Position numbers and translations under genes: made by a program. From positions 1 through 21,395 of the IMG/VR virus record IMGVR_UViG_3300027580_000033: a stretch of DNA of 21,395 bases. One strand, written 5' to 3'. The notes beneath the pieces were generated by a model that was not told the origin of the DNA, searched no databases, and saw nothing but the letters and a program-made list of their open reading frames with translations. The stretch's first letter is position 1. The number at the start of each line of letters is the position of its first letter. Source of the DNA: a virus. Shown piece after piece: positions 2 through 21,395 of this stretch.

Positions 2-2044
2 TTGCGCTCACCACGCACTTTCACCAATACTGATGCCCTGCGGCAGCCTGCGCTCCACTATAAGGAGCACGGGTACTACTGCGACCATCCCCAAGGGACC
101 AAGGCATACTGGGACTACTGGGAGGAGCAGAAGCGGCGCTGTCTGGAGGGCTACGAGGTAGACGGCCTGAAAATCACGGGCTACCACTACTTCTACCTCA
201 ATTTCAGTCCCATCCTCCTCGTGGAGGAGGCTGAAGGCAACTCCGCGCAGAAAATCGAGACCTTCCCTCATTTCTGGGACGGGGACTACAACTACTTCTG
301 GACTCTGGAGATTGCCCAGAATGGCATCTCTGAGGAGGAGTACGAAGACCTTCAGCTTGGACTGGACATCACGAACCTGGAGGGCGGCTTCCACATCGTC
401 GTCCTGAAGGCCCGTGGAAAGGGATTCAGTTACAAGGCGGGGTCCATGCTGGCTCGGAATTTCGTCCTGAAACGGAAATCCAAGAATTTTGCCCTGGCCC
501 ACGAGAAGGAGTATCTCACCAAGGACGGGCTCCTCACGAAGGCCTGGGACACGATAGACTTCATCGATGCCAATACCCCATGGAGACAGCCCCGGCTGAA
601 AGACGCCACGATGCACAAAAGGAGCGGCTACCAGCAGAAGCGGGGCGGCTCCTATGTGGAGTTGGGCACGAAGAATGAGATCATGGGCGTGTCCCTGAAG
701 GACAATCCCGACAAGGCCCGTGGAAAGCGGGGTGAGCTGATCTTCTTCGAGGAGGCAGGCAAGTTTCCCGGCCTACAGGAGGCGTGGGAAATCTGTCGTC
801 CCTCTGTAGAGCAGGGAAAGTACACCACCGGGACCATGATTGCCTACGGAACCGGTGGTTCTGAACAGGGGGACTATGAGGACCTGGAAGAGCTATTCTA
901 CAACCCGGAGTCCTACAACGTCCAGCCCATCAACAACCAGTGGGACGAGGGGGCAGACGGCAACAATTGCTCGTTCTTTTTCCCGTCCTACATCAACTGT
1001 GAGGGTTTCATCGACGAGGAGGGCAACTCCGACATTGAAGGGGCCAAGGCGTACCACGAGGACCAGCGTGAGAAGAAGAAGCAGACCGACGAGCCCCGGG
1101 CCTTAGAGCAGTACACCTCTGAGAATCCGTTTACACCCCGGGAAGCCACCCTCCGCGTAGCCACCAACATCTTCCCGACCCGCGAGCTACAGGAGCAGCT
1201 AAACCGCGTCCTGGCAGAAGACCGCCACAACTCTCTCGTCTCGGGTCAGCTCTACACCGATTCCGATGGAGACGCCAAATTCCGACAGACGGAAGATGCA
1301 TCTCCCATTTTCAAGTACCCGGCTCCGGAAGGGATGGATAAGACCGGTGCCGTGGTCATCAAGGAAGCCCCAGTTCGCAACAACGACGGGAAGGTACCCC
1401 AGGGCCTCTACACCATCTGTCATGACCCCTATGCCCACGACGGGCAGCCTGAGAAGGGATCGTTGGGCGCGGCCTTCGTCATCAAGCGAACCAACAACTT
1501 CTCAAAGACCCTCAACGGGTCCATCGTGGCCTCCTATGTTGGCAGGCCCCGCAGGCAGGACGACTACAACCGCAATCTCTTTCTCCTGGCCGACTACTAC
1601 AACTGCAAGATCGGCTTCGAGAACAACCGGGGAGACGTGATTGGCTACGCCAAGCGCTTCAACCGCCTCCACTACCTGGAGGAGGAGTTCGAGATCTTAG
1701 ACAAGAAACAGCGCAAGAAGAAGCCGGGAAAGACCACCAACAGGCCGTATGGAATCAGGATGTCCAAGCCCCGCAAGAACCAGGGGCAAGTGTACCTGCG
1801 AGATTGGCTTCTGACCCCACTCTCGAAGTATGAGGACGGGGAGGAGAAACTGGTCCTGCACACCATCCTGGACCCCGCTCTCCTCAACGAGCTGATTAAG
1901 TACAACCCGGACGGAAACTTTGACCGCGTTTCCGCTCTGCTGATCGGCATGTACTACCTCAAGGACCTGCAAACGAAGCAGGTCCGCTCAGAGAGTGGGC
2001 TCGAAAAGCACCAAGAGTTCTTCAACCGGCCTCTATACCAGTAA
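2..2044 (+). CDS. terL: Terminase large subunit (5' end outside window)
   Basis: DNA-packaging motor ATPase and headful nuclease, acting at the portal vertex during head filling. At least 680 residues are visible. The frame is open to the left edge and only a TTG stands at its start, so the true start is probably upstream. Residues 35-70 form an aromatic N-terminal block (YWDYWEEQKRRC, then ITGYHYFYLNF) that I recall from TerLs of crAss-like and other Bacteroidota phages. The ATPase has a Walker A-like loop at 136-146 (KARGKGFSYKA, lacking the canonical GKS/T), a Walker B at 246-251 (LIFFEE) and a GTGG coupling motif at 283-286. The RNase H-like nuclease shows acidic residues at D475 (HDPYAHD), E540/D545 (FENNRGD) and D641 (NFDRVSAL). 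It ends 15 bases before the portal gene. The function is secure; the family placement is inference. Confidence 0.93.
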   Translation: MRSPRTFTNTDALRQPALHYKEHGYYCDHPQGTKAYWDYWEEQKRRCLEGYEVDGLKITGYHYFYLNFSPILLVEEAEGNSAQKIETFPHFWDGDYNYFWTLEIAQNGISEEEYEDLQLGLDITNLEGGFHIVVLKARGKGFSYKAGSMLARNFVLKRKSKNFALAHEKEYLTKDGLLTKAWDTIDFIDANTPWRQPRLKDATMHKRSGYQQKRGGSYVELGTKNEIMGVSLKDNPDKARGKRGELIFFEEAGKFPGLQEAWEICRPSVEQGKYTTGTMIAYGTGGSEQGDYEDLEELFYNPESYNVQPINNQWDEGADGNNCSFFFPSYINCEGFIDEEGNSDIEGAKAYHEDQREKKKQTDEPRALEQYTSENPFTPREATLRVATNIFPTRELQEQLNRVLAEDRHNSLVSGQLYTDSDGDAKFRQTEDASPIFKYPAPEGMDKTGAVVIKEAPVRNNDGKVPQGLYTICHDPYAHDGQPEKGSLGAAFVIKRTNNFSKTLNGSIVASYVGRPRRQDDYNRNLFLLADYYNCKIGFENNRGDVIGYAKRFNRLHYLEEEFEILDKKQRKKKPGKTTNRPYGIRMSKPRKNQGQVYLRDWLLTPLSKYEDGEEKLVLHTILDPALLNELIKYNPDGNFDRVSALLIGMYYLKDLQTKQVRSESGLEKHQEFFNRPLYQ

Positions 2045-2059: not shown

Positions 2060-4276
2060 ATGCCCAACTCTACCACACAACTCCCCCGGCAGCGGCTTCC
2101 ACGAGAAGAAAAGGATCAGGAGTGGAAGGAAGATGTGATCGACTCCATCATCGGCCTCTCCACCTTTGACCGTCCCTACTCCGTCACGGATAGCGACCTG
2201 AAGAAGGCCTACGAGTACTACAACGGCGTGGTCGATGACTCCGACTACACTCACGTGACGAAGCCCTATGGCAAGAAGCGGGAGAATTTCCCCGCCAAGC
2301 TCCAGAACTACAATATTATCAAGCCGGTCATCGACCTGCTGAAAGGGGAGAAGGCTCGTCGTCCCTTCGACTTCACCACGAAGGTGCTCAACGACGACGT
2401 GGTGACCCGGAAATCGGAAGAGAAGAAGCAGAAGCTCTTCCGCAACCTGATGCAACACTTCCTGGCAGAGCTTGAAGCCCAAGGGGTGCCCATTGAGGAT
2501 CTGAGCCCCGATGAAATGCCCCCGCCGCCGGATGATGTGGAGGAGGCCTTCGAGCAAGACTACCGCGACCAGCGGGCCATCACTGGCCAAAAGGCCCTGA
2601 ACTACCTCGTAGAGACCCTGGGCGTAGAGCGCCAGCTTGTCGAAAAGGGCTGGCATCACTGGCTCGTGGCCGGGGTCGTGGCCACCCTCCGAAATGCGGG
2701 AATGAACGAGGTGGAATACGAGGTTCTCAACCCCCTGAACATCGATTGGGACAAGAGCCCTGACTCAGACTTCATCGAGGATGGACAGTGGGCTGTTCAC
2801 CGACGCCGCTCTACGGTCTCCGACGTGATTGACAGCTTCTACGACGAGCTGACTGATGAAGAAATCGATCAGCTTGAGAAAGGGGAGAAGGACTACTCCA
2901 CGCCCTTCATCAGCTACAGGGACGCTGAGCAGGATGAGCGCCACGACAACAACAACGGGCGCATGGTAGAGGTCATGGAGGTCTATTGGAAGTCCATGAA
3001 GCAGGTGGGGATCGCCACTTACGAAGACGAGATGGGCCTCCTTCAGGAGAAGACGGTGGACGAGGGATATGAGCCCTCCGAAGGGGAGGAAGTGGAATGG
3101 TACTGGGTCAACGAGGTATGGCAGGGCTACCGCATCGACGAGGACATCTACAAGCGCGTCGAACCCTTGGAAGTCCAGCGCCGCGACAAGGACAACATTT
3201 CCGAATGCAAACTCCCGATCAATGGGCGGCGCTACTCCGACATCAATGCCCCCAACATCTCTCTCGCCCAGCTCGGGATTCCCTACCAGATCACCTACAA
3301 CATCTACAAATTCCGGCTGGCCAATGCTGTGGCGAAGAGCAAGGACATGATCGCCCAGCTTGACATCAACCTCGTCCCCGATGAATGGGACCTGGACACC
3401 TGGTTCTACTACATGGATGCCACGGGCATCGCCTTCACCGACTACTCGAAGGAGGAGCTAAACATCAGTCCCCAGCACCAAACGGTTCTGGACATGACCG
3501 TGCAGGTCATCCAGGACTATATCGCACTTCTGGAGGCCATACTCGACGAGTGGGAGCGTCTTTCCGGCGTCTCTGCCCAACGACAGGGCATCATTGCCCC
3601 CTACGAAACACAGGGAGGCTCTGAGCAGGCCATCGTCCAGTCCAGCTACATCACAGAGGACTACTTCAACAAGTACGCCAACTTCGAGGAGCGGGAGCTG
3701 AACGCCATTCTGGACTACTCCAAGTCCGCATGGGTCAATGGCAAGTCTGCAAGCCTCGTGCTTCCGGACAAGAGCCAGGAGATCATCCAGATTGACGGAC
3801 TGGAGCACATGGAGTCTGAATACGGCGTCGTCGTCTCGAACAGTGGAGAAGACATCCAGGCCACCGAACGCCTGAAGACCCTCGCCCAATCCATGATGCA
3901 GAACGGCGTTCCCCTCTCAGATGTGATCGACATTCTGGATGCCAACAGTCTTTCCGGCATCAAGGACAAGATCAAGAAGGCAGAGAAGAGCCGTGAGGAG
4001 TTGGCCAAGGCCCAGCAGGAAGCGGAGAACCAGCAGAAGCAAGCTGAACTCCAGATCGAACAGATGAAGCTCCAGGCCGACCAGCGGCAGGAAGAGATGG
4101 AGCGTCAGACGAAGATGCAGCTTGAGCGCCTCAAGCAGCAGCAGGAAGATGAGGAGCTGGAGTCTGAAGAAGAGCAGGCCGAAAAGGACCGGCAACTTGA
4201 GCGCGACAAGATGAAGCAGGAGAAGGAGCTTCGGGAGAAGGAAATTCGCGCCCAGAAACAGTCCGATTCCGGGTAA
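2060..4276 (+). CDS. Portal protein
   Basis: Dodecameric portal that forms the DNA channel at one capsid vertex, docks TerL during packaging and carries the neck proteins afterwards. It has 738 residues, long for a portal but typical of the crAss-like group. The block around residues 83-105 (NYNIIKPVIDLLKGEKARRP) matches what I recall of the conserved N-terminal region of Bacteroidota phage portals. The middle is rich in aromatic and acidic residues, as expected for clip and stem domains. From about residue 640 to the end the protein is a highly charged Q/E/K-rich coiled coil, which could form an internal barrel or bind the scaffold. Its place between TerL and the scaffold/MCP genes is the strongest support. 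The ATG at 2060 is chosen because the start-site motif lies directly upstream. Confidence 0.88.
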   Translation: MPNSTTQLPRQRLPREEKDQEWKEDVIDSIIGLSTFDRPYSVTDSDLKKAYEYYNGVVDDSDYTHVTKPYGKKRENFPAKLQNYNIIKPVIDLLKGEKARRPFDFTTKVLNDDVVTRKSEEKKQKLFRNLMQHFLAELEAQGVPIEDLSPDEMPPPPDDVEEAFEQDYRDQRAITGQKALNYLVETLGVERQLVEKGWHHWLVAGVVATLRNAGMNEVEYEVLNPLNIDWDKSPDSDFIEDGQWAVHRRRSTVSDVIDSFYDELTDEEIDQLEKGEKDYSTPFISYRDAEQDERHDNNNGRMVEVMEVYWKSMKQVGIATYEDEMGLLQEKTVDEGYEPSEGEEVEWYWVNEVWQGYRIDEDIYKRVEPLEVQRRDKDNISECKLPINGRRYSDINAPNISLAQLGIPYQITYNIYKFRLANAVAKSKDMIAQLDINLVPDEWDLDTWFYYMDATGIAFTDYSKEELNISPQHQTVLDMTVQVIQDYIALLEAILDEWERLSGVSAQRQGIIAPYETQGGSEQAIVQSSYITEDYFNKYANFEERELNAILDYSKSAWVNGKSASLVLPDKSQEIIQIDGLEHMESEYGVVVSNSGEDIQATERLKTLAQSMMQNGVPLSDVIDILDANSLSGIKDKIKKAEKSREELAKAQQEAENQQKQAELQIEQMKLQADQRQEEMERQTKMQLERLKQQQEDEELESEEEQAEKDRQLERDKMKQEKELREKEIRAQKQSDSG

Positions 4277-5588: not shown

Positions 5589-7019
5589 ATGGCTGACATC
5601 AAAGTCTCAAGAACGTACTACAATGACCAGCAGATGACGGACAGCAACTCGCTGGCCAACGCTATGCTCCAGCGGCCAGCGGAGTTGTCTCCGGTCATCA
5701 CCTTCCTGGGCGGTCGGCAGGACAAGAAGTTCCCGCTGACGATGCTCACGGAGGGAATGCAGAACACGAAATCCATCGACGAGGACGAGTACGAGTACAA
5801 GGTCCAAACCAAGGTCACGCGGACACGTCCCGTGGCTGAGACCCCGGCCAATTCCGCGAACCTTGGCCAGGGTGGGCAGACCTTCAAGCTCGTCTTCCCA
5901 GACCAGTGGTTCATCAAAGACTACGTCCTGGTAAGCCAGAGCGGGGTTCAGGCTCGCGTGATGCGCCAGCCGGTACCCAAGGGCTCGAACTACGAGTACA
6001 CGCTCCAGCTCGTCAACCCCAACACCAATGCCTACGTCCCTCAGAAGGATGTGCAGGCCGGTGCCACTTGGGGCCAGCTCTTCGCGCCTGTCGGCAAGGA
6101 CTTCAGCCGTGGAAACGCCTCCAACTGGACGGCTCCCTCGGAAGTGAAGCACAAGCTGACGAAGATCCGCAAGTCCTACCAGATGAGCGGAGACGCGAAG
6201 GACTACGTGATGAGCGTCGAGCTTCCCACGGAAGGCGGGGGCACGTCCAACCTCTGGATGGACTACGAGGAGTGGCAGCACATGCTTCAGTGGAAGGAAG
6301 AGCTGGAGATGCTGCACTGGTACGGTGAGCGCTCCTACAACGCGCAGGGTGAGACGCATCTGCGGGATGAGAATGGCCAGCCGATTATCATCGGCCCCGG
6401 GATCTTCCAGCAGATCGTGAACAAGGACACGTACAGCGTACTCACCGCCGACAAGCTCCACAACACCATTGGCGACCTCTTCTTCGGTATGACGGATGCC
6501 CAGGAGGTTCAGGTGACGCTCTTTACCGGAACCGGTGGGAAGCGGGAGTTTGACCGCGCCATGAAGGATGAGCTTGCCAGCGGCAAGTTCACGGTTCTGG
6601 ACCAGGGCAAGTTTGTCCAGGGACAGGGCCAGGAGCTGGAGCTGACCGGCTACTTCACCAGCTACCGCCACATTGACGGCCACCTCGTCAACGTGGTCAA
6701 GAACCCGCTCTTCGACCACGGGGCCGTGGCTCAGGCCTCGGAGAAGCACCCGGTGAGCGGCCTCCCGCTGGAGAGTTACCGGATGGTCTTTCTCGACCAG
6801 TCCATCTACAACGGTGAGCCCAACCTCCAGATGGTCAACAAGTCGAACTACGAGTTCAAGCGGTGGGCTGTCCCTGGCAGTGTAACGCCGCCTGGATTCG
6901 ACCAGAGCACCTCTCGGGCGTCGGACATTGACGGAGCCTCGGTTCACTTCATGAAGCAGGGCTCAGTGTGTCTCAAGCGATTTGACACCTCCCTGGATCT
7001 CCAGTGTGTCCGCGCCTAA
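5589..7019 (+). CDS. Major capsid protein (HK97-fold, predicted)
   Basis: Main shell subunit of the icosahedral head, 476 residues, within the usual size for Bacteroidota podovirus MCPs. It follows the scaffold gene, starts at an ATG in an A/C-rich leader, and is flanked by hairpins on both sides, as expected for the most heavily expressed gene of the module. The N-terminal 60 residues are polar (MADIKVSRTYYNDQQM). Residues 195-250 form a candidate spine region (KIRKSYQMSGDAKDYVM, then MDYEEWQHMLQWKEELEMLHWYG). The later GPGIFQQI and FTGTGGKREFDRAMKDEL segments look like P- and A-domain strands of HK97-type shells. Codons are strongly biased, which keeps a long open frame on the opposite strand. 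The fold assignment rests on context and general appearance. Confidence 0.85.
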   Translation: MADIKVSRTYYNDQQMTDSNSLANAMLQRPAELSPVITFLGGRQDKKFPLTMLTEGMQNTKSIDEDEYEYKVQTKVTRTRPVAETPANSANLGQGGQTFKLVFPDQWFIKDYVLVSQSGVQARVMRQPVPKGSNYEYTLQLVNPNTNAYVPQKDVQAGATWGQLFAPVGKDFSRGNASNWTAPSEVKHKLTKIRKSYQMSGDAKDYVMSVELPTEGGGTSNLWMDYEEWQHMLQWKEELEMLHWYGERSYNAQGETHLRDENGQPIIIGPGIFQQIVNKDTYSVLTADKLHNTIGDLFFGMTDAQEVQVTLFTGTGGKREFDRAMKDELASGKFTVLDQGKFVQGQGQELELTGYFTSYRHIDGHLVNVVKNPLFDHGAVAQASEKHPVSGLPLESYRMVFLDQSIYNGEPNLQMVNKSNYEFKRWAVPGSVTPPGFDQSTSRASDIDGASVHFMKQGSVCLKRFDTSLDLQCVRA

Positions 7020-11035: not shown

Positions 11036-11293
11036 ATGGCCGACAGAGCCATGCAAGTCACGCCTTATTCCGGGGCTGCTTATGGGGCTCTTGTCTTTGT
11101 TCTGGGGGCGGCGTGCTACCTCCTCTACAAGGAGCTTCAGGACCAGCAGCGACGGCACGAGGAGCACTTGAAGAAGACCCTTGGTGTGCTTCAGATGATC
11201 GAGTCCAAGCTACCTGTGCTCGGGGACATGAATCAGACCATCAAGGACATTGAGCGGCAAGTGCAATCGGTCCAAGATGACATCAACCAATGA
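11036..11293 (+). CDS. Small membrane protein with coiled-coil tail, holin-like
   Basis: From the ATG at 11036 the product has 85 residues: a short N-terminus, one transmembrane helix at about 12-30 (GAAYGALVFVLGAACYLLY), then a charged amphipathic coil containing DQQRRHEEHLKKTLGVLQM. One helix followed by a charged cytoplasmic coil is common for small holins or holin-associated proteins. The frame extends upstream; a GTG at 10982 would add a second hydrophobic segment (SIVLLCYVLALLP), giving a two-helix protein of 103 residues. The start is therefore uncertain, and no clear start-site motif marks either option. Its stop overlaps the next start (ATGA). The position beside a cupin and a membrane-anchored protein suggests a lysis or envelope role. 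Confidence 0.65.
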   Translation: MADRAMQVTPYSGAAYGALVFVLGAACYLLYKELQDQQRRHEEHLKKTLGVLQMIESKLPVLGDMNQTIKDIERQVQSVQDDINQ

Positions 11294-11790
11294 TTCGATC
11301 CCTCTTTCGCAGCAAGTCCATGGAAAGCCTCTCCCAGGAGGTGGACGAGAAGGTTCAGAATATCACGGACCGCCTCCAGATGGAGGAAGATGCCCGGATT
11401 GAGATCGGTATCGACTTCCCGGCTGTCTTCAAACAGCAATCGGAAGAGATTGCAGAGGGGAAGGTGGAGTGGAGAAACTTCTTTTCAGATCCGGAGAGCG
11501 GCATCTATTCCATCCACTGCCGGATGGAAAAGGGGGCATACATCCGGGAGCACTCACACCCTGGGGCCAACGAGTACATCTACGTCGTCACCGGAGGACT
11601 GGTGGACTGGCGAGGAGACTCCTTCAGCGGAGATCTGATCTACCCGCCTGAGCACGTCTACGAGGCCAATTTGGAGCTGGAAAGCCCCACAGTAAGAGGT
11701 TGGCATAGGATTCCCGCTGGCAAGATCCACCGTCTACAGGCCACACAGGACGACACCCACTTCGTGAGCAAATTCATCCTCGATGGTTAG
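11290..11790 (+). CDS. Cupin-domain protein
   Basis: 166 residues, overlapping the previous stop by four bases (ATGA), hence coupled to the holin-like gene. Cupin motif 1 is complete: G82, five residues, H88-S-H90, four residues, E95, six residues, G102 (GAYIREHSHPGANEYIYVVTG). Motif 2 follows as P142-A-G144-K-I-H147. H88, H90, E95 and H147 would hold one divalent metal. The first 60 residues are helical and polar (SKSMESLSQEVDEKVQNITD), an extension before the single barrel. Known cupins include sugar isomerases, dioxygenases and ligand sensors, so the reaction cannot be stated. There is no signal peptide. The domain is unusual for a phage structural/lysis region, and it stands where an endolysin might be expected. 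Confidence 0.82.
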   Translation: MIRSLFRSKSMESLSQEVDEKVQNITDRLQMEEDARIEIGIDFPAVFKQQSEEIAEGKVEWRNFFSDPESGIYSIHCRMEKGAYIREHSHPGANEYIYVVTGGLVDWRGDSFSGDLIYPPEHVYEANLELESPTVRGWHRIPAGKIHRLQATQDDTHFVSKFILDG

Positions 11791-12454
11791 ACTCATCAAC
11801 TCCCTGGTTCGCTTGTCTCAATCATCTCTCCTCGTCCGCATTGCTGTCGTTGAGTTTCTGGTGATCGTGGCTCTGGGAGCTACCCTGTACTACCAGGGAG
11901 AAGAGACGGTGCGGACTGTTGTCAAGCGGGACACGACGCAGACCACGAAGGTGGATACAGTTTGGATGCAGGAGGACGGACTTGAGGAATGGTCCCTTGC
12001 CGACCTCCCAGATCCCACGCTTCTTCAGGCAGCCCAGCGAGACACAACCGTCGAAGAGAGCCCTGATTCCACGGCGGCTCCAGATACGGTCTATATCTCG
12101 CGGATCCCGCCGATTCAGCGCTACTCGACGCCGATTACCAACCCCCACTTCACAGGCACCATAACCTCTACTGTCCAGGGCTCGCTCCTCCACCAGGAGC
12201 TTGACTACAGCCTCCGGACCTACAGGATCAATCACCTGAAGACACAGACAATTAGAACTCGCACAACGCATTACCAGCGTGAGCGCTTCAGGCTCAACGC
12301 TGGTTTTTCTGTTGGAGCCAACTCCAAGGCCCTCACTCAACTAACCCCAATGATCGGCCTGGAGAGGCCCGGAAGATGGCAGGTCTACTACGGCTTCAAT
12401 CCGCTCCGTGAGTCTCACCAACTCACGCTGATTACACCCCTTCTAACCCGCTAA
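11783..12454 (+). CDS. Membrane-anchored periplasmic-type protein, candidate spanin
   Basis: 223 residues, overlapping the cupin gene by eight bases. A single transmembrane helix at about 17-36 (LVRIAVVEFLVIVALGATLY) is followed by a long T/D/P-rich stretch (TVVKRDTTQTTKVDTVWM) with no further membrane segment. The C-terminal 60 residues look like short beta strands (RFRLNAGFSVGANSKAL, then GRWQVYYGFNPL). An N-terminal anchor with an extended periplasmic part resembles membrane-anchored proteins in Bacteroidota phage lysis regions and would suit a spanin-like bridge to the outer membrane. No lipobox partner is embedded or nearby, so the lysis role is inference. The stop lies inside the start-site motif of the next gene. 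Confidence 0.65.
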   Translation: MVRLINSLVRLSQSSLLVRIAVVEFLVIVALGATLYYQGEETVRTVVKRDTTQTTKVDTVWMQEDGLEEWSLADLPDPTLLQAAQRDTTVEESPDSTAAPDTVYISRIPPIQRYSTPITNPHFTGTITSTVQGSLLHQELDYSLRTYRINHLKTQTIRTRTTHYQRERFRLNAGFSVGANSKALTQLTPMIGLERPGRWQVYYGFNPLRESHQLTLITPLLTR

Positions 12455-12458
12455 CCAG
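12436..12458 (+). promoter_or_regulatory. Start-proximal motif, double copy, before metallophosphoesterase
   Basis: ACCCCTTCTAACC at 12436-12448 is followed by CTAACCAG at 12451-12458. Both overlap the end and stop codon of the upstream gene. The ATG follows at 12473 after a 14-base leader. Overlap with coding sequence did not prevent the motif from being kept. Confidence 0.45.
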
Positions 12459-12472
12459 ACAGGCATCGCTCC

Positions 12473-13720
12473 ATGGGACGAAAAGAGTTGAAGAACCACT
12501 TGATTGAAAACCAGGGATACCTCAAGTGGGCCGCCAGCAAGATTGCAGACAAGTTTGGAGATGAGACCGTTGACGAGGAAACCGTCAGTGAGATCCGGAA
12601 GGAGATCCGTCAGAACTTCGACAATAAAAACCGCTCCACCAGCGACCAGAACCAATACTCAACCACCTCTGAGGACATCCCGGAAGGAGCCCGGGGTGAG
12701 TACCTGAAGCATCTCGAAGACTTGGGAATCGAGGAGGAGGACGTAGACAGCGTCAAGTACTGGCAGACGTTCTTCGGAGAACACCGCTTCAGCGTTGTCA
12801 CGAAGTCCGATGACCCGGAAGAGCCCGGAGAGGATGAAATGCTCCAGGTGATCGAGGAGCATCTTGCGGACTACGAGATGCCGGATGCCATACCTCAAAA
12901 GATGGAGCCGAAGGGGGATAATCTCGGGGTCATCAACCTCTATGACGCCCACCTGGACAAGGTCTCACTGGCTGCCGAAACCACGGAGGAGATTGACGGG
13001 AGCATTCAGGAAAACATCCAGAACTTCGAGAGTGCTTTCGACGAGTTCCTCCATACCCTGGTGGACAACGGAGTGAGACACGTTCACTTCCCCCTCGGGC
13101 ACGATCTTTGGGAGGTCAACGACCACTACTTGCTCACGAAGAATGGAACCCCTCAGCGGGTAAATGTCCCCTGGCAACAGGGTTTTTCCGTTGGGCTGGA
13201 CATGGTCCGTCGCTGCATTGACAAGGCAGCTCAGGTCGTGGACTCTATCGACGTGATCCTGATCCCAGGCAACCACGACGAGGATCAGAATTTTTACCTG
13301 GGCGAGGTGCTGCGCCACATCTACCAGTCCAGCGACAGAGTTAACGTCGGATACTCCCGTAGGAAGCGTAAGTACCGTCTCTTCGGAGATGTGCTTCTGG
13401 GCTACTCCCACGGGGAGAACACCACCAGCCAGAAGAAGATCGAGCGCCTACCCCTAAACATGGCCCACGAGGCCGCCGAAAAGTGGGCTCAGGCCACCGT
13501 CCGGATGATGTTGTTGGGCCATATTCACCGTAAGCTCCAGTACAAGATTCTCCACAACCTTGACGCCATTGGTTGCGAGATTAAGTTCCTGCGCTCCGTG
13601 GGAACGGAGAACAAGTACGAGTTTGACAACGGCTACACCGGCATTCCGAAGACCGCCGAACTCTACGTTTTCTCCGAAGATGGCAGGAAGCGCTGGAATG
13701 CTCAGAAGGTATGGTGGTGA
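12473..13720 (+). CDS. Calcineurin-like metallophosphoesterase with N-terminal helical domain
   Basis: 415 residues. The C-terminal two-thirds carry the metallophosphoesterase signature: D158-A-H160 (NLYDAHLD), G209-H-D211 followed by N216-D217 (where GD.xxD..D is usual), G266-N-H-D-E270, H313 (GYSHGE) and G349-H-I-H352. These residues bind two metals and hydrolyse phosphoesters. Residues 1-50 (HLIENQGYLKWAASKIADKF) look like a helix-turn-helix, suggesting nucleic-acid binding and hence a nuclease. Residues 50-145 form an acidic linker. Related large phosphoesterases occur in Bacteroidota phages, where their task is unclear. The GHD in place of GD at the second motif is worth noting but may be normal for this subfamily. 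Substrate is unknown. Confidence 0.85.
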   Translation: MGRKELKNHLIENQGYLKWAASKIADKFGDETVDEETVSEIRKEIRQNFDNKNRSTSDQNQYSTTSEDIPEGARGEYLKHLEDLGIEEEDVDSVKYWQTFFGEHRFSVVTKSDDPEEPGEDEMLQVIEEHLADYEMPDAIPQKMEPKGDNLGVINLYDAHLDKVSLAAETTEEIDGSIQENIQNFESAFDEFLHTLVDNGVRHVHFPLGHDLWEVNDHYLLTKNGTPQRVNVPWQQGFSVGLDMVRRCIDKAAQVVDSIDVILIPGNHDEDQNFYLGEVLRHIYQSSDRVNVGYSRRKRKYRLFGDVLLGYSHGENTTSQKKIERLPLNMAHEAAEKWAQATVRMMLLGHIHRKLQYKILHNLDAIGCEIKFLRSVGTENKYEFDNGYTGIPKTAELYVFSEDGRKRWNAQKVWW

Positions 13721-13761
13721 TTGTGCGGGCCAGTGATGAGTCTGTGAAGCCGTTCTCGAAG

Positions 13762-13793
13762 GTTGTCTAAATGTGTCCACCATATTACATTTT
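13762..13793 (+). promoter_or_regulatory. Candidate Bacteroidota-type promoter
   Basis: GTTG at 13762-13765, a 20-base spacer, then TACATTTT at 13786-13793. The Bacteroidota housekeeping consensus is TTTG, 19-21 bases, TAnnTTTG, so each element misses one base. It lies in the most AT-rich stretch of the window. Transcription would start near 13800 and drive the PAS-like gene. It is the only such match I noticed between genes. Confidence 0.45.
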
Positions 13794-13804
13794 TCGTGAC
13801 CACA

Positions 13805-13823
13805 GGCTTACCCCGCGTAAGCC
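13805..13823 (+). repeat. Hairpin GGCTTAC/GTAAGCC in leader of the PAS-like gene
   Basis: A perfect 7-base stem with the 5-base loop CCCGC, followed by ATTAGAGAAG and no U-run. It lies between the candidate promoter and the ATG at 13866, so it may sit in the 5' leader, or end transcripts coming from the metallophosphoesterase gene. Apart from this hairpin and the promoter, the 145-base gap 13721-13865 shows nothing else. Confidence 0.5.
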
Positions 13824-13865
13824 ATTAGAGAAGCACCTCTTCAGCCACTGTCTGAGACACACACT

Positions 13866-14399
13866 ATGTCACCTACAGACCCTCGTACAGAGAGGTTAAG
13901 GGAGGAGGACCTCTTTCAGATCATTGATGACGGGGAGGGTCAGATTTGCGGAGTTGTCGTTAGCGTCGATGCTCTTCTAAGGTCGTTCGACCAAACTGTG
14001 AGTATTTGCGAGACGCTTCTACAAGACATCATATACATCCATCGCCTTTGCGATCTGAAGGGATGGAGGTACATCACTACAGAGACCGCCTGGGAGCTTT
14101 CAAAGGAGAACGTAAGCATCCATGACCACGAAGGACGTTGCCTTGCTGTAGACCCTACTCTGGATGGCAGAGGGAGACAATGGTGGAGGAGTGCCATCGG
14201 AAAGAGCAGCTACAAGCAACTTCTCCCAGAGGATCGCCATCAGACCCGATTTTTCCACAACGAGGCTCTTCGGGGAAACGCCAATCAATTCAGCTACCGG
14301 GCAAAGCTCAACGGCACTTACTTCGAGAAAACCGTCAGATTTGAACCCTTCGACTCGTTAAGCAAGCGCCTTTTGCGCGTCCAACACCATATCCACTAA
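13866..14399 (+). CDS. PAS-like sensor domain protein (accessory gene)
   Basis: 177 residues. Residues 78-166 follow the order of a PAS fold: a short strand pair (VSIHDHEGRCLAVDP), a helix and loop (WWRSAIGKSSYKQLLPEDR, compare the common pattern IGKS..LLHPEDR), a helix (NEALRGNA), then strands FSYRAKLNGTYFEKTVRFEP. Residues 30-65 form a helical segment (LLRSFDQTVSICETLLQDI) that could dimerise. No kinase, DNA-binding or cyclase domain is attached. PAS domains sense ligands, redox or light, or mediate dimerisation; which applies is unknown. The gene uses codons that its neighbours mostly avoid (TTA, CTA, AGG, ACA, TCA), has its own likely promoter and lacks the start-site motif. All this suggests a recently acquired gene. 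Confidence 0.6.
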   Translation: MSPTDPRTERLREEDLFQIIDDGEGQICGVVVSVDALLRSFDQTVSICETLLQDIIYIHRLCDLKGWRYITTETAWELSKENVSIHDHEGRCLAVDPTLDGRGRQWWRSAIGKSSYKQLLPEDRHQTRFFHNEALRGNANQFSYRAKLNGTYFEKTVRFEPFDSLSKRLLRVQHHIH

Positions 14400-14401: not shown

Positions 14402-15163
14402 ATGGCCACTCTGAACGAAATCACCTACAACATCCTGGACTCGATGAGCGGGGGTCACTCGACGAATGATGCCCCGTACAGTCCCCGGCAGATCCGGTTT
14501 ATGGTCCGTTACTACCGGCACCTCCTCATCCGTCGAGACACCGACTACTGGAAGCGCCTTTCAGACCTGGAGCAAGACCTGGGGACTCTCGCTGTTACCA
14601 CGGTTCAGGAGCCGGTGGGCAAGATCCACGAAACCCCCAGCAGCGCCCTTCAAACCAGCATCGAGATTCCGGAGCCCGTGAGGCTGCGAAAGCGGAGTCC
14701 TTTCACGTTCATCGGAAGCCCTGATCTGGAGGAGCACTACGACTTGATGCCTTCCGGACAGCTCCGGTACCAAAGCTACTCGAAGTACACATCCTCTACG
14801 CCCCGGGCATATCTTCATGACGGGCGTATCTACATCACCTCAGACGCGGTAGCTACGCTGATCCAAAAGGTGCAGTCTGGAGAGGCAGACATCGATGATT
14901 ACTCCACGTCGGACTTTGAGGATGGAATTACCACCATCCGGGTGAAGGGCGTCTTTGCTCATCCGGAGGTGGCCTTCCAGGTGGCCCATGGCCGCCCCTA
15001 TGACCCGGATATGGAATACCCAGGAATGCCGGAAGACATGGTTCAGCGTATCACTCAGTCCATTCTCAGCGGAGAGGCGCAGGCCATGATTCGCACTCGC
15101 ATGGATACGGAGGCCGACCATCTCCCCACAAACGTGGAGGCGGTGGACAATGAAGGGGGATAA
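14402..15163 (+). CDS. Ring/connector-type virion protein
   Basis: 253 residues. An N-terminal helical region (PRQIRFMVRYYRHLLIRRDTDYW) leads into a beta core with the aromatic line LRYQSYSKYTSSTPRAYLHD and then GRIYITSD. I recall this combination (RQI..mi..YR..Lir.., then Y..Y.KYTs..pRay..dGriYI) from structural proteins of Bacteroidota podoviruses, where such proteins build rings between portal and tail. The C-terminal part (AHPEVAFQVAHGRPYDPDMEYPG, split by loops, ending in a helix with MVQRITQSILSGEAQAMI) agrees with this. Exact ring identity is unknown. It is followed by a hairpin with a CTAACCA loop. Confidence 0.75.
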   Translation: MATLNEITYNILDSMSGGHSTNDAPYSPRQIRFMVRYYRHLLIRRDTDYWKRLSDLEQDLGTLAVTTVQEPVGKIHETPSSALQTSIEIPEPVRLRKRSPFTFIGSPDLEEHYDLMPSGQLRYQSYSKYTSSTPRAYLHDGRIYITSDAVATLIQKVQSGEADIDDYSTSDFEDGITTIRVKGVFAHPEVAFQVAHGRPYDPDMEYPGMPEDMVQRITQSILSGEAQAMIRTRMDTEADHLPTNVEAVDNEGG

Positions 15164-15765: not shown

Positions 15766-16554
15766 ATGCTTTATGACACCACCTCCTGCAAGGAGGTCCT
15801 CGCCAAAGTCTATCGAGACCTCCAGATGGAAGACTCCCACTGGGAGGCTGACGCCATCGAGTGGATCGGCGAAGGCCTGGAAATGATCGGGGCCGGGGTG
15901 CAGCTTGAACGCCGCCAGGAAGTGATGAGCGTGCAGAACTTCAAGCTCGCCATCCCCAGCGATTTGGTTTTCATCGAGGCCCTCTACAAGCTCCCGGACA
16001 GCGTCAGCTTCACCGGGGCTGGGGAGAGCCTCAGCTACGATGCCCAGCAGGTGGAGCATGGCACGAAGCATCGCGTGCCCCGCAAGGGCAAAGCTCGGTC
16101 ACGTGGTCTACTGGGGACGCTCCACGAAGGAATCGGGAAAGAGGAGACCCAGCACAAGGCCGCCGACATCGAGGAGACGTATATGCTCAATCCCGGCGTC
16201 ATTCACGCTTCCTGGGAGCGGAGCCTCGTGATCTTGGACTATAAGGCCGTGGCCACCGACGATGAGGGCTACCCACTGGTCCCCGATGAGGCGCACTACA
16301 AGGAGGCTCTGTTCTGGCGCATCGTCATGAAGCTCTTTCTCCGGGGCTACGAGCACCCCCAGCTCAACTATCCTCGCGCCCAACAGCAGTGGAAGCACTA
16401 CGCCGCTGCTGCACGCACCAAGGCCAAGATGCCGGATGTGGACGAGATGGAGAACTTCCGTCAAATGTGGGTCCGCTTCGTCAACCAAGGCTTTCGGGGT
16501 CGGGGAGGGCGCATTTCCAATTCATCCTACGGCACAGACCACGTCACTGACTAA
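15766..16554 (+). CDS. Head-tail ring/stabilisation-type protein
   Basis: 262 residues. The N-terminal helical part (CKEVLAKVYRDLQMEDSHWE, then IEWIGEGLEMIGAG) and a beta segment (FKLAIPSDLVFIEALYKL) lead to the line VIHASWERSLVILDYKAVAT, followed by DDEGYPLVPDEAHYKEALFW and LFLRGYEHPQLNYPRAQQQW. The pattern 'y.a...DeeGyPlvPD...y.eAl.w' is one I associate with connector or tail-stabilisation proteins of crAss-like and related podoviruses. The C-terminus is Arg/Gly/Ser-rich (FRGRGGRISNSSYG) and probably flexible. The stop overlaps the next ATG (TAATG), so the two are translationally coupled. The ATG follows GGCCAACCTC, a weak trace of the start-site motif. Confidence 0.75.
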   Translation: MLYDTTSCKEVLAKVYRDLQMEDSHWEADAIEWIGEGLEMIGAGVQLERRQEVMSVQNFKLAIPSDLVFIEALYKLPDSVSFTGAGESLSYDAQQVEHGTKHRVPRKGKARSRGLLGTLHEGIGKEETQHKAADIEETYMLNPGVIHASWERSLVILDYKAVATDDEGYPLVPDEAHYKEALFWRIVMKLFLRGYEHPQLNYPRAQQQWKHYAAAARTKAKMPDVDEMENFRQMWVRFVNQGFRGRGGRISNSSYGTDHVTD

Positions 16555-17090
16555 TGAACATTGTCCCCTTCGTATTTGACAACGTGAAGGAGTTCTCCAA
16601 CGACTCGGAAATCCTCCTGATGCTGATTGATGATGCCGTGCAGGAGGCCCCAGCAGAAGTGCGTGGGACCCTCGCGGAGATGCTCAAAACCATCGATGCC
16701 AACAGCCCACAGGTCAAGAAAGACTGGGTCGAGGAGATCCTTCGGGAGATCGTCTACTACGACTACATCCCACCTCTCTTCCGGGTGAACCAGGGTGAGG
16801 ACTTTTCCATCCGGATTGACCTTGAGCAGGGCCGCGACTTTACGGGCTTCAACCTCACGATCCGCAGAGCGGATACCAGCGCCCTGCTCTCGCCCAATGA
16901 CACCGCAGGCCAGTCCTACACCCAGGCCCCCACGCAATACGCTTACATCTCCGATCTGAGCCTCTCACAGGACGAGGTTTTCAAGGTTCACGTACTTCTG
17001 GAGAACACCGATGGGAATGACTTGGCCAATGGAGATGTGGCCACGCTTCTCACCAATGCCTACCTGCTGGTTGATGACAGCCTTGAGTAA
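16554..17090 (+). CDS. Small virion protein, possible fibre adaptor
   Basis: 178 residues, coupled to both neighbours by TAATG overlaps. Residues 1-70 are helical and acidic (SEILLMLIDDAVQEAPAEV). Residues 75-178 form a beta region (FRVNQGEDFSIRIDLEQGRD, then GFNLTIRRADTSALL and VFKVHVLLENTDGN) that reads like an immunoglobulin-like sandwich. Such folds are common in proteins that join fibres to the tail. No enzyme motif is visible. The lockstep coupling to the giant fibre gene suggests matched production, and hence an adaptor or assembly partner. This is inference; I do not recognise the family. Confidence 0.6.
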   Translation: MNIVPFVFDNVKEFSNDSEILLMLIDDAVQEAPAEVRGTLAEMLKTIDANSPQVKKDWVEEILREIVYYDYIPPLFRVNQGEDFSIRIDLEQGRDFTGFNLTIRRADTSALLSPNDTAGQSYTQAPTQYAYISDLSLSQDEVFKVHVLLENTDGNDLANGDVATLLTNAYLLVDDSLE

Positions 17091-20000
17091 TGAGCAACCT
17101 GATCGACAAAATTGTCGTTGACCGCCAGAAGAACGGCTTCCGGCGTGGCGGTGAGATCCACTACGATGGTCAGAACTGGGAGGACCACTGTAGCCAGATC
17201 TACATCGACGACATCACCCTGGATCGCCCCACTCAGACCATCACGGTCTTTGCCGTGGATGACGGCGACGACAACCCCGACTTCCGATACCGGGTAAACC
17301 AGGGAACGTGGACCGATACTCCGGACTTCGTGGGCCTTTCTCCGGGCCACTACGACGTATTCGTAGAGAACCAGAACACCGGCTGCGTGGTCAACGCCGC
17401 CGTACAGGTAATTGCCTGCGACCTCACCATCGATCAGTTTCTCTACGACGACGAGTACTACGATCTCACCAATGGCTGGATAGAGCTAACCGTCTCTACC
17501 ACCAGTGAGAATCCGGTAGAGGTCCGGTTCAACGGCGGTTCCTGGATTGAAAAAGAGGGCCGCACCTTCCGATGGGAGGGGCTCAATGAAGGGGATTATA
17601 CCATCGAGGTGCGCGACGAATGGGGTTGTGCGGTGTCTAAGAGCATCACTCTCATCAACATTGCGGACACCGAAGAGCCCACTGCCCCTGATAAACTTGA
17701 GACCCAGGACGTACAGGAAGGGGAGGCGCTTCGCATTGACTGGGAGAAATCCGTCGATTCCCAGACGTGGGTAGTCTACTACCGAATCCATCGGTCCACC
17801 ACACAGGGCTTCACTCCAGATGCCTCCACCATCATCAAGGACACCTATAACGGTGGGGTCAACACCACGGGAAATGACAGCGAGTGGGAGGAGCCCTTTT
17901 GGGTAGATGAGAATGTCACCCACGGGCAGACTTACTACTATCGCATCACGGCCTTCGATGCCCGGGGCAATGAATCTGCCCCTTCCGACGAGTTGGCCAT
18001 CACCTTCACGGATGATGTACAGCCCAATCCCCCAACGTCGCTGGGCACTCTAAGTGGCAACACGGAAGCGGAGCTTTACTGGAATCTCTCGTCTACGGGG
18101 GATGTCCAAAAGTACCGCATCTACCGGAGTCTGGATGGGCAGAGCTGGATGCAGATCGCAGAGCAGCAAGTCCTGACCTACCTGGACACCGGCCTCACCA
18201 ATGGCACTCAGTACCACTACCGGGTGACGGCCATCGACGAGGCCGGGAATGAATCGGTACCCACGCAGCCGGAAAGCGTCATTCCTGCGGACGTAACTCC
18301 ACCTGCGGTTCCCTCGATCAACGCTTCCGTGACGGAGGACGTAAAGCAGGTAGACCTCTCCATCACGATGGACGACACCTCAGACCTTCAGGGGTACCGC
18401 ATCTACCGGGCCTACGAGAAAAGCGACGGCACCCTCACTGCCTACAAACGAGTCCACCAAATCGACGCCACGCAAGGTACAGCCTCGTGGGTTGATACCA
18501 ACGTCGAGTGGGACCGGAAATACTACTACAAGGTGACCTCCATCGATGAGGTCCCCAACGAAAGCCCTCAGTCTGCCCGGACTCCCGCCACTCCGTTTCC
18601 TGATCGCACTCCACCGGCACTGCCCTCCATCACGGGGAAGCAGAAGTTTTTCGGTGAGCCGGAAGTGGAGCTTACGGTGACGATTCAGGATACCACTGAC
18701 CTTCAGGGCTACAACATTTACCGGGCTACGTCCAGCGGAGGCCCCTACACACTGGTCAAGCAAATCAGCAGCACCAAGGCCAGCGAGACGTGGCTGGATA
18801 CGACAACCCAACTCTCCACAGAGTATTTCTACGTCGCAACCAGCTTCGACGAAGGCCCGAATATTCCCGGAGCAGACCCCAACGAGTCTGCCTACTCAAC
18901 GGAGATTAGTGTTCTTCCGGAACCGGTCCCCCAGGACCAGAGCGTTGAAGTCAATCTTGCGGCCAACACTGCTGGAGCTGACCCGGGATTCTTGGGCTAC
19001 GACCTCTCCACACTGGCCGATACCATCTTCTGGGACTATGTCCTGGAAAGCGGAGATGACATCCGGATTCGTCGGCCTGATGGGGACAATCTGCCGATGG
19101 TGCTCCTGGAGTTCGATAAGCAGAACTCCAGCGGATACGTCCTCTTCTCGGACCCGGAATTTGACCCCACCTCTGACCACAAGTACTTCATCTGGTTCGA
19201 TGACCCGGACAATGCCGGGAGAGAAGGGACCCCGGCAGGTAGACAGGCCTTTGCCGACGACGTGTACCAGAAGATCCCCAACCTCCAGTTTTTGATGCTG
19301 AACGGGGAGACGCAGAATCGCATCTCTGCACAGAGCGGAGTCACCATCCACTATGTCCATGACCACCTCCCGGAAGGCTGGCAGAAGGCCACCTTCAGCG
19401 GCACCCAGAATAAAGGAGCTGTCACTTACAACGGAGACCAGTCCTACACCTTTGAGGCCTACGGGGACGACATCTGGAATAACACCAGTCATGGAGAATA
19501 CCTCTTCAAACCCATCGTCGGGGATTGCAAGATCACGACGAAAGTGATCCTCCAGGATGACACCGACCAGTGGGCCAAGTTCGGTCCCTACATCACGTCG
19601 GATGTCTATGAAAGGGCTCCGATGGCTGCCCTACTTCTGACCCCCAACGATGGCCTCTTCGGGGATGTCCGCAAATCCAGGAACGGCAACAACACACACG
19701 CAGCAGAGGACCGGAATATCGATCTCTCTCCGCAGTCCACCAGCGAGGATCCGGTTTGGCTTCAGATGGAGCGGACTGGTGGAGAGATCATCTATCGCTA
19801 CTCGACAGATGGCTCCACCTGGACGGAGTTGGGAAGGGCTCAGGACTTTCTCCCGAAGAGGATTGCCGCTGGGCTGGCGGCCACCTCCCACAACCAGTCT
19901 ACCGCCTGCACAGTGGAGACCCGGGAAGTCTCTGTTGAGGGCGCTGAAGGCAATTTCATGCACGGAGACGATCAGATCCTTGCCCTCGATGGGATTCACT

Positions 20001-21395
20001 TTGACCCGGCCAACAGTGACACCATCGAGAACATGCACACCACCCTCCTGATCGAGCCCCGGATGGTGGTGGATAACGCCGGGGAGGGGATGGTCCTCAG
20101 CTTCGACCGGAATGAGTATTTCCGGCTCTCTGCTCCCGATGGGTATGCCAACCGCATTGGTTTCGACAGCCAACACAACGGGAGCCAGTACGACAGTGAC
20201 CAGATGGATCAGGGATATGATTTCGATCAGCAGGTCGAAGCCCTGATTCAGTGGATGTTCGAGAAGGAGGGCTCCTCAGACTACCGCAAGGAGAAGTGGA
20301 TGAATGGAGCCCGGGAGGACTATCAGAACACCTCGGATCCAATGATCGGGTCAAACAAGAGATACGGCCTCATTGGGGGCAACAGTGAGAGTGCAGCCTT
20401 CATGGACGAAAATTGGTCGGAGAAGGGGCCACATCACATCTTCAAGTTCTTCCTGTGGGCGCTCACCGCCAGAACGGGAGCTGAACGACAAGCGGAGGAG
20501 GATTTCCTGTGGCGTGCGAAGAGACTTTGGGACTACCCTATCATCTACATCTACCGGGATGTCTCCGACCCCGACCCCACCTTCCTGAAAATGGCCGGGG
20601 AGCCGATGCAGGGAGATATTCTCACGATGGACCTTCAGAGCGATGTCTTCACGGAGAAGCTGGTTGGAGAACCAACCCAACGCCCAACTCTCATCGTCCA
20701 GGGTAGCACTGACCCACAATTTGCACCCCCGACGCCGACGAATATCACCAATCTGTCGGCAGCCCAGGAAGCGAAGTTGGAGACGGAGCTGCCCACGACG
20801 GAAGGAGTGGATACCATTGAGGTCTATCGATCCAAGAATCCAGGCGGCCCCTACTCCCACGTGGCGTCGGTCTCTGTGGCCTCAACCATCGAGACATGGA
20901 CTGACACTACACTCACCCCCTTCGGAGAGTACTACTACGTTCTGAAGGCCGCCACTTCTGTGGGGGATGAATCTCTTCAGTCTTCCTCTGAAGAGGGTGT
21001 AATGACTGGCTCTGGCAATGACATCAATCTACGGAGTATAGGGGTGAACTCCGTAAGCGGTGGCAATGAGATGGTGATCGAGGCCTCAAGCCCCAATGGC
21101 GGGATGGAATACAGCTTAGATGGAGGAGCCTATCAGACCTCCAACACCTTCTCAAACATCTCTCAAGGAACCCACACTCTTGATCTTCGGGATGTCAACG
21201 GAATCACAGCATCAATCGAGGTAGAGTTCTCAGGGGAGGATGGTGCTGTGCTCTTCGAGAACACCCCTCCACCGGCTCCTTCTGCCAAGCATGAAAGCTC
21301 CGGGAGTGGGTCTTTCACCCTGGAGGTGGACACCCAGAGCATCGACATCGACAAGCTGGAGATCTACCGGAAGGCTGAGGCAGACTCCTCTTACA
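17090..21395 (+). CDS. Giant modular tail fibre / receptor-binding protein (3' end outside window)
   Basis: At least 1435 residues with no stop before the right edge; it starts at the TAATG overlap with the preceding gene. Modules by eye: two SprB-like repeats (48-108, 112-190; FNGGSW...LNEGDYTIEVRDEWGC), four fibronectin type III repeats (196-306, 308-398, 401-503, 505-612; typical YRIYRS...YYYRVTAIDEAGNES), a DUF2341-like module (618-735), a concanavalin-like module of the DUF1349 type (760-950), a LamG-like or unassigned module (about 955-1200), a further FnIII repeat, a third SprB-like repeat and the start of another FnIII. There is no signal peptide or membrane segment, as expected for a virion protein. 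The probable job is reaching and binding surface glycans or adhesins. Being last in the late cluster fits a receptor-binding protein. Confidence 0.85.
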   Translation, partial: MSNLIDKIVVDRQKNGFRRGGEIHYDGQNWEDHCSQIYIDDITLDRPTQTITVFAVDDGDDNPDFRYRVNQGTWTDTPDFVGLSPGHYDVFVENQNTGCVVNAAVQVIACDLTIDQFLYDDEYYDLTNGWIELTVSTTSENPVEVRFNGGSWIEKEGRTFRWEGLNEGDYTIEVRDEWGCAVSKSITLINIADTEEPTAPDKLETQDVQEGEALRIDWEKSVDSQTWVVYYRIHRSTTQGFTPDASTIIKDTYNGGVNTTGNDSEWEEPFWVDENVTHGQTYYYRITAFDARGNESAPSDELAITFTDDVQPNPPTSLGTLSGNTEAELYWNLSSTGDVQKYRIYRSLDGQSWMQIAEQQVLTYLDTGLTNGTQYHYRVTAIDEAGNESVPTQPESVIPADVTPPAVPSINASVTEDVKQVDLSITMDDTSDLQGYRIYRAYEKSDGTLTAYKRVHQIDATQGTASWVDTNVEWDRKYYYKVTSIDEVPNESPQSARTPATPFPDRTPPALPSITGKQKFFGEPEVELTVTIQDTTDLQGYNIYRATSSGGPYTLVKQISSTKASETWLDTTTQLSTEYFYVATSFDEGPNIPGADPNESAYSTEISVLPEPVPQDQSVEVNLAANTAGADPGFLGYDLSTLADTIFWDYVLESGDDIRIRRPDGDNLPMVLLEFDKQNSSGYVLFSDPEFDPTSDHKYFIWFDDPDNAGREGTPAGRQAFADDVYQKIPNLQFLMLNGETQNRISAQSGVTIHYVHDHLPEGWQKATFSGTQNKGAVTYNGDQSYTFEAYGDDIWNNTSHGEYLFKPIVGDCKITTKVILQDDTDQWAKFGPYITSDVYERAPMAALLLTPNDGLFGDVRKSRNGNNTHAAEDRNIDLSPQSTSEDPVWLQMERTGGEIIYRYSTDGSTWTELGRAQDFLPKRIAAGLAATSHNQSTACTVETREVSVEGAEGNFMHGDDQILALDGIHFDPANSDTIENMHTTLLIEPRMVVDNAGEGMVLSFDRNEYFRLSAPDGYANRIGFDSQHNGSQYDSDQMDQGYDFDQQVEALIQWMFEKEGSSDYRKEKWMNGAREDYQNTSDPMIGSNKRYGLIGGNSESAAFMDENWSEKGPHHIFKFFLWALTARTGAERQAEEDFLWRAKRLWDYPIIYIYRDVSDPDPTFLKMAGEPMQGDILTMDLQSDVFTEKLVGEPTQRPTLIVQGSTDPQFAPPTPTNITNLSAAQEAKLETELPTTEGVDTIEVYRSKNPGGPYSHVASVSVASTIETWTDTTLTPFGEYYYVLKAATSVGDESLQSSSEEGVMTGSGNDINLRSIGVNSVSGGNEMVIEASSPNGGMEYSLDGGAYQTSNTFSNISQGTHTLDLRDVNGITASIEVEFSGEDGAVLFENTPPPAPSAKHESSGSGSFTLEVDTQSIDIDKLEIYRKAEADSSY
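17231..17659 (+). other. Two N-terminal SprB-like repeats in the fibre
   Basis: Residues 48-108 (FRYRVNQGTWTDTPDFVGL then SPGHYDVFVENQNTGC) and 112-190 (VEVRFNGGSWIEKEGRTF then LNEGDYTIEVRDEWGC) share the order 'y..n.G.w.....F..L..G.Y.v.V.d..GC' of SprB repeats, known from Bacteroidota adhesins and gliding proteins. Confidence 0.55.
17675..18925 (+). repeat. Four tandem FnIII-encoding repeats
   Basis: Residues 196-612 encode four fibronectin type III units of about 90-110 residues. DNA-level similarity is visible between units 3 and 4: GACCTTCAGGGGTACCGCAT near 18383 and GACCTTCAGGGCTACAACAT near 18700, both followed by TACCGGGC. This suggests expansion by duplication. Confidence 0.7.
19367..19939 (+). 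other. Concanavalin-like (DUF1349-type) module in the fibre
   Basis: Residues 760-950. The diagnostic line runs GDDIWNNTSHGEYLFKPIVG, DCKITTKVILQDDTDQWAKF, then YRYSTDGSTWTELG and AAGLAATSHNQSTACTVE. This is the pattern of the jelly-roll domain often annotated as regulation-of-enolase/DUF1349 in secreted bacterial proteins, and it may bind a polysaccharide. Confidence 0.65.
21019..21233 (+). other. Third SprB-like repeat in the fibre
   Basis: The segment MEYSLDGGAYQTSNTFSNIS followed by QGTHTLDLRDVNGITASIEV is the best match to the SprB repeat consensus (Y.yslDGg.fq.s..F..l..G.yt..v.D.nG) in the window. It lies between two FnIII units. Confidence 0.6.

Follow-up and report, generated by a model that had tools for sequence, protein, structure and literature searches.

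Phage-borne PAS proteins are already known, and the gene described here adds another one. That a phage PAS protein can work as a sensor has a precedent in VqmA of phage VP882, a quorum-sensing receptor that combines PAS and HTH domains and is carried by a linear plasmid phage (PMC12802170, PMC8284805). For crAss-like phages, earlier work has proposed a plasmid-like way of life (PMC11652158), and Salinibacter virus EM1, whose genome is 35 kb long, has been shown to be maintained as an episome (PMC12064560). Small phage PAS_4 proteins had been annotated before, and our literature search for PAS in crAss-like phages found no paper.

The window, by which we mean the whole stretch of 21,395 nucleotides analysed here (a 21.4-kb viral record), is part of a crAss-like phage genome and carries the Crassvirales-type marker set of terminase, portal, capsid and ring proteins (Table 1). 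Its terminase and capsid protein are about 40% and about 31% identical, respectively, to those of gut crAss-like phages, and relatives of the capsid protein occur in 80 viral contigs at 59–100% identity. The host is probably a salt-loving bacterium; a search of bacterial genomes with the capsid protein, made in the hope of a pointer to the host, returned no match. The sequence-only reading had picked out a PAS-like accessory gene inserted between late genes, and this arrangement holds: a leader and an open reading frame (ORF) lie with an SbcD-like nuclease gene on one side, whose product also gives a weak Metallophos match under the cut-off, and CrAss_Ring_2 on the other. Two related phages, L005 (a 96-kb record) and L084 (a 44.6-kb record), have orthologs in the same nuclease/ring 2 interval, at 32% identity to the window protein. 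The ring-2 gene begins 2 nt past the PAS stop codon in the window, whereas in L005 and L084 the two genes overlap by 14 nt.

Table 1. Features of the window and start-site motif positions in L005
Feature	Position	Strand	Details
Terminase	2–2044		
Portal	2060–4276		
Capsid protein	5589–7019		
Cupin gene	11290–11790		
Start-site motif TAACCCGCTAACCAG	12443–12458	+	upstream of nuclease gene; nearest recurrent motif upstream of PAS gene
SbcD-like nuclease / metallophosphoesterase	12473–13720	+	upstream neighbour; phrog_704, E 9e-40
Leader	13721–13865	+	145 nt, GC 0.50
Loose Bacteroidota-type promoter match	13763–13792	+	TTG-N20-TACATTT; weak
Hairpin	13805–13823	+	GGCTTAC-CCCGC-GTAAGCC, 7 bp, without T-run
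PAS accessory gene	13866–14399	+	177 aa
N-terminal region, residues 1–72	13866–14081	+	conserved in orthologs (L..SFDQT)
PAS domain (predicted), residues 73–177	14082–14396	+	model matches; PAS_4 in orthologs
CrAss_Ring_2 tail ring protein	14402–15163	+	downstream neighbour; PF25702, E 2e-24
CrAss_Ring_1	15766–16554		E 1.5e-44
Start-site motif, window	4356, 5562, 9692, 12443–12458, 15244		
Start-site motif, L005	6479, 8800, 9978, 14423, 16915–16935		

Two other genes deserve mention in their own right. The cupin gene, also in the late block, is of the ChrR-type Cupin_7 family (E 7.9e-9) and has matches in L004, L005, L008, L011 and L084. The gene at 11783–12454, whose window copy gives a weak holin-type match (phrog_175, E 0.018), corresponds to L005:16269–16913 and L084:5927–6571; these two copies have a nucleotide identity of 0.65 and a dN of 0.42, in phages otherwise ~90–94% identical, a contrast that points to either local replacement or fast divergence of the gene.

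The PAS assignment draws on the orthologs as well as on the window protein, which by itself matches no Pfam or PHROG family and, against the PDB (phmmer), gives weak matches only (E 0.05, both PAS). The L005 and L084 orthologs score 24.8 and 23.8 bits against Pfam PAS_4 (PF08448; E 2.6e-5 and 5.4e-5), both above the cut-off of 23.1 bits, with the window protein under detection; we join the latter to them because of its identity to them and the shared synteny. When the PDB was searched with a profile of the three orthologs, most of the chains matched were PAS (NCOA1, BMAL1, ARNT and PYP; best E 0.006). AF2 modelled the window protein and L005 with low confidence (pLDDT 56 and 53, respectively), yet each model has only PAS or LOV domains, or proteins with such domains, among the 50 matches listed for it, with best Z scores of 5.8 and 8.5, respectively; these matches cover about residues 72–177 of the window protein. 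Given the ortholog PAS_4 scores, the PDB profile and the model matches, we consider the call of a predicted PAS domain sound for the C-terminal ~105 residues, and the earlier suggestion of a PAS-like protein is upheld. Residues 1–72 are conserved in the orthologs, although no family match could be assigned to them.

Pfam, NCBIfam and PADLOC revealed no output domain (kinase, GGDEF or DNA-binding) in any member, and none of the three orthologs contains an HTH family. By eye we recognised in the PAS protein no known cofactor motif (LOV cysteine motif, FixL haem histidine). Single-sequence and profile searches of viral contigs returned no homolog beyond L005, L084 having been reached via ring 2 and not via the PAS protein, and searches of genome contigs, annotated phages and plasmids yielded none either. 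Nor did we find a close cellular relative that points to a host target. Among 13 records of related phages, 11 hold no PAS_4 copy, and the matches in the other two are the orthologs themselves.

Because the protein has no output domain, we propose that it acts through PAS pairing. Transcripts of the nuclease gene would read through into the PAS gene, and the protein would be made late. Its PAS domain would form pairs, either with another copy of itself or with a host (or phage) sensor or regulator that contains PAS. A small ligand may gate this pairing, which would thereby adjust host signalling. We favour this reading, in which the protein partners or interferes with host PAS signalling, tentatively and at a little short of an even chance. 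The earlier idea that this putative PAS protein senses a host state or dimerises with a host PAS regulator is plausible. In favour of this reading, the corresponding site in other clades holds unrelated small genes, as an accessory site would; against it, orthologs are known from two independent lineages only, and the location before ring 2 fits an assembly role equally.

The PAS domain could instead be part of the phage's own switch, binding a host metabolite or autoinducer, dimerising and setting late expression against episomal persistence in a VqmA-like manner. A plasmid-type phage that carries a PAS sensor provides the precedent (PMC12802170, PMC8284805), and the close relative L005 is itself plasmid-like: its record holds a Rep3 initiator (L104:13684–14613, minus strand), which shares 62% identity over 98% with its counterpart on a Salinibacter ruber plasmid, and has a ParA-type ATPase nearby (L104:15230–15943, minus strand). 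Because of this Salinibacter-type plasmid Rep and the accompanying ATPase, gene content suggests that the sister phage is a phage-plasmid of a Salinibacter-like host. However, Rep3 was found in 1 of the 12 related records and not in the PAS-bearing L084, which is a 44.6-kb fragment. Further, the PAS gene is located in the late block, no DNA-binding domain was found and the domain order is reversed, with PAS C-terminal. We consider such a switch unlikely.

In an assembly or virion role, the protein would be associated with ring 2 as a chaperone or as a minor component, with the PAS fold as a scaffold for protein contacts. Its gene lies immediately before the ring-2 gene, overlapping it in two relatives, and the tail-hub genes gp38 and gp39 of phicrAss001 hold the same position (PMC10172136). 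In other clades, too, a small ORF is kept at this place and in many cases overlaps ring 2. Among loci with both flanks in view, the PAS gene occupies the site in all three members of its clade in which the site is visible (the window, L005 and L084), and most relatives have another small ORF instead: 77–97 aa in L008 and L011, 56 aa in L032, 49 aa in L099 and, in one large clade, an acidic family of 100–121 aa at 11 loci (L035:10222–10530 and ten more) that matches no Pfam or PHROG family and often overlaps both neighbouring genes. The L021 site (16766–20542) contains two long ORFs of 656 and 442 aa, fibre-like by eye and 37% identical to each other over 126 residues. In L014, L016 and L023 the site is empty, which argues against an assembly role, though these loci also have no ring-2 match after it. 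Codon usage that differs from that of abundant virion genes argues in the same direction, as does the lack of a detected sequence relation to gp38/gp39 or among the small-ORF families, a comparison made with shallow profiles. Taken as a whole, an assembly role seems to us improbable. We also asked whether the PAS protein is homologous to the acidic family of 11 loci, or to phicrAss001 gp39 or gp38; neither idea found support, shallow profiles making this a weak test.

On a capsid-protein tree the site states cluster, with 8 changes versus a shuffled mean of 14.0, and the window, L004, L005 and L084 fall together with moderate support (85/88), L021 beside them. These comparisons indicate a clade-specific accessory gene of a fairly ordinary type, conserved at its site throughout the near clade and missing from the others. 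Conservation at the site coupled with late co-expression, which would speak against an independently expressed accessory gene, is thus seen in part: the gene is conserved in the near clade and missing elsewhere, and the co-expression is read from gene layout.

The sequence-only reading had favoured a moron expressed from a host-type promoter, and several of its observations stand. A classical moron would be independently transcribed cargo, flanked by a promoter and a terminator of its own and active while the late genes are silent. The composition is indeed unlike that of the neighbours: among the 17 genes of the window, the PAS gene ranks last in both GC (0.509) and GC3 (0.584), and it has a synonymous-codon z of −6.5, the next worst gene being at −3.8. 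The orthologs have z values of −5.2 (L005) and −6.7 (L084), and codon usage is non-structural-like in all three. Because orthologs at 32% identity, in the same place, deviate too, the deviant composition is a lasting property, and it marks a long-held, differently used gene. A recent horizontal arrival, the other explanation that we considered, was rejected because of the same shared site and composition. Purifying selection on the gene is indicated by a dN/dS of 0.08 between L005 and L084, a value similar to that of most neighbours.

The leader, too, is in keeping with a moron, being the widest intergenic gap in the window, far longer than the other gaps, and kept at 145–156 nt (156 nt in both L005 and L084). 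Leader identity is 91% between L005 and L084 and 53% between the window and L005 (z 2.5); folding is ordinary (z −0.8 to −1.2), and we rejected a conserved leader element. The recurrent start-site motif that the sequence-only reading had described, and found missing at the PAS gene, is real. TAACCAG occurs four times on the plus strand of the window, each time at most 45 nt upstream of a start, where 0.12 would be expected, and often inside CCTTCTAACCA; the L005 version is CCCTTTACCA (and CTAACCA). No such motif precedes the PAS gene in any of the three phages. A phage RNA polymerase may use the motif as a promoter or transcription start signal.

The signals that would make the PAS gene independent of its neighbours fared less well. 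Over 2.9 kb, a scan for sigma-70 promoters returned a single match, which lies on the opposite strand and is at chance level, and there is no terminator or sigma-70-like site on the plus strand beside the gene. The loose Bacteroidota-type promoter match, which would favour a moron, is missing from the L005 and L084 leaders, and the claim of an own promoter is not supported. The hairpin is present in the window, and such a structure arises in 2.5% of shuffles, but it has no T-run and is missing from the orthologs' leaders. Because of the 2-nt gap or 14-nt overlap with ring 2 and the lack of a conserved promoter or terminator, the simplest reading of the layout is that the nuclease, PAS and ring-2 genes form one transcription unit, in which the PAS gene is probably co-expressed with late genes. 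What survives of the moron idea is a clade-specific gene of deviant composition at a site whose content varies between clades, whereas expression from an independent host-type promoter is not supported; with ring 2 overlapped in two of the three phages as well, a classical moron is doubtful. Mechanisms other than host partnering, a phage switch or a virion or assembly role have between them only a slim chance.

If the PAS protein does meddle with host signalling, it would offer a small, tractable case of steering of the host by a crAss-like phage, a member of a group noted for long host coexistence. The site before the ring-2 gene, with its lineage-specific small genes, is also a place to seek further host-interaction genes. 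A more specific version of the partnering proposal, in which an output-less PAS protein reads or jams host PAS signalling and so sets episomal persistence against virion production in a halophile-infecting crAss-like lineage, is a long shot.

Compared with known systems, the locus resembles VqmA of VP882 in having a phage-borne PAS protein and, in its close relative L005, a plasmid-type lifestyle, but in VqmA the PAS domain is N-terminal and a DNA-binding HTH domain forms the C terminus, whereas here PAS is C-terminal and no HTH was found. With the phicrAss001 tail-hub genes gp38 and gp39 it shares a genomic position before the ring-2 gene (PMC10172136), in contrast to sequence, where no relation is detectable. 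A0A6J5RGP7, a 169-aa PAS_4 protein of an uncultured Caudovirales phage, is similar in its stand-alone size and appears among the structural matches, although with a Foldseek E of 0.89 it falls short of significance. The PAS_4 family itself (PF08448), which includes sensor kinases and regulators, is linked to our protein by two orthologs above the cut-off and by the same predicted fold, but unlike its members the protein has no output domain, carries an unassigned N-terminal region and is encoded within a block of phage virion genes.
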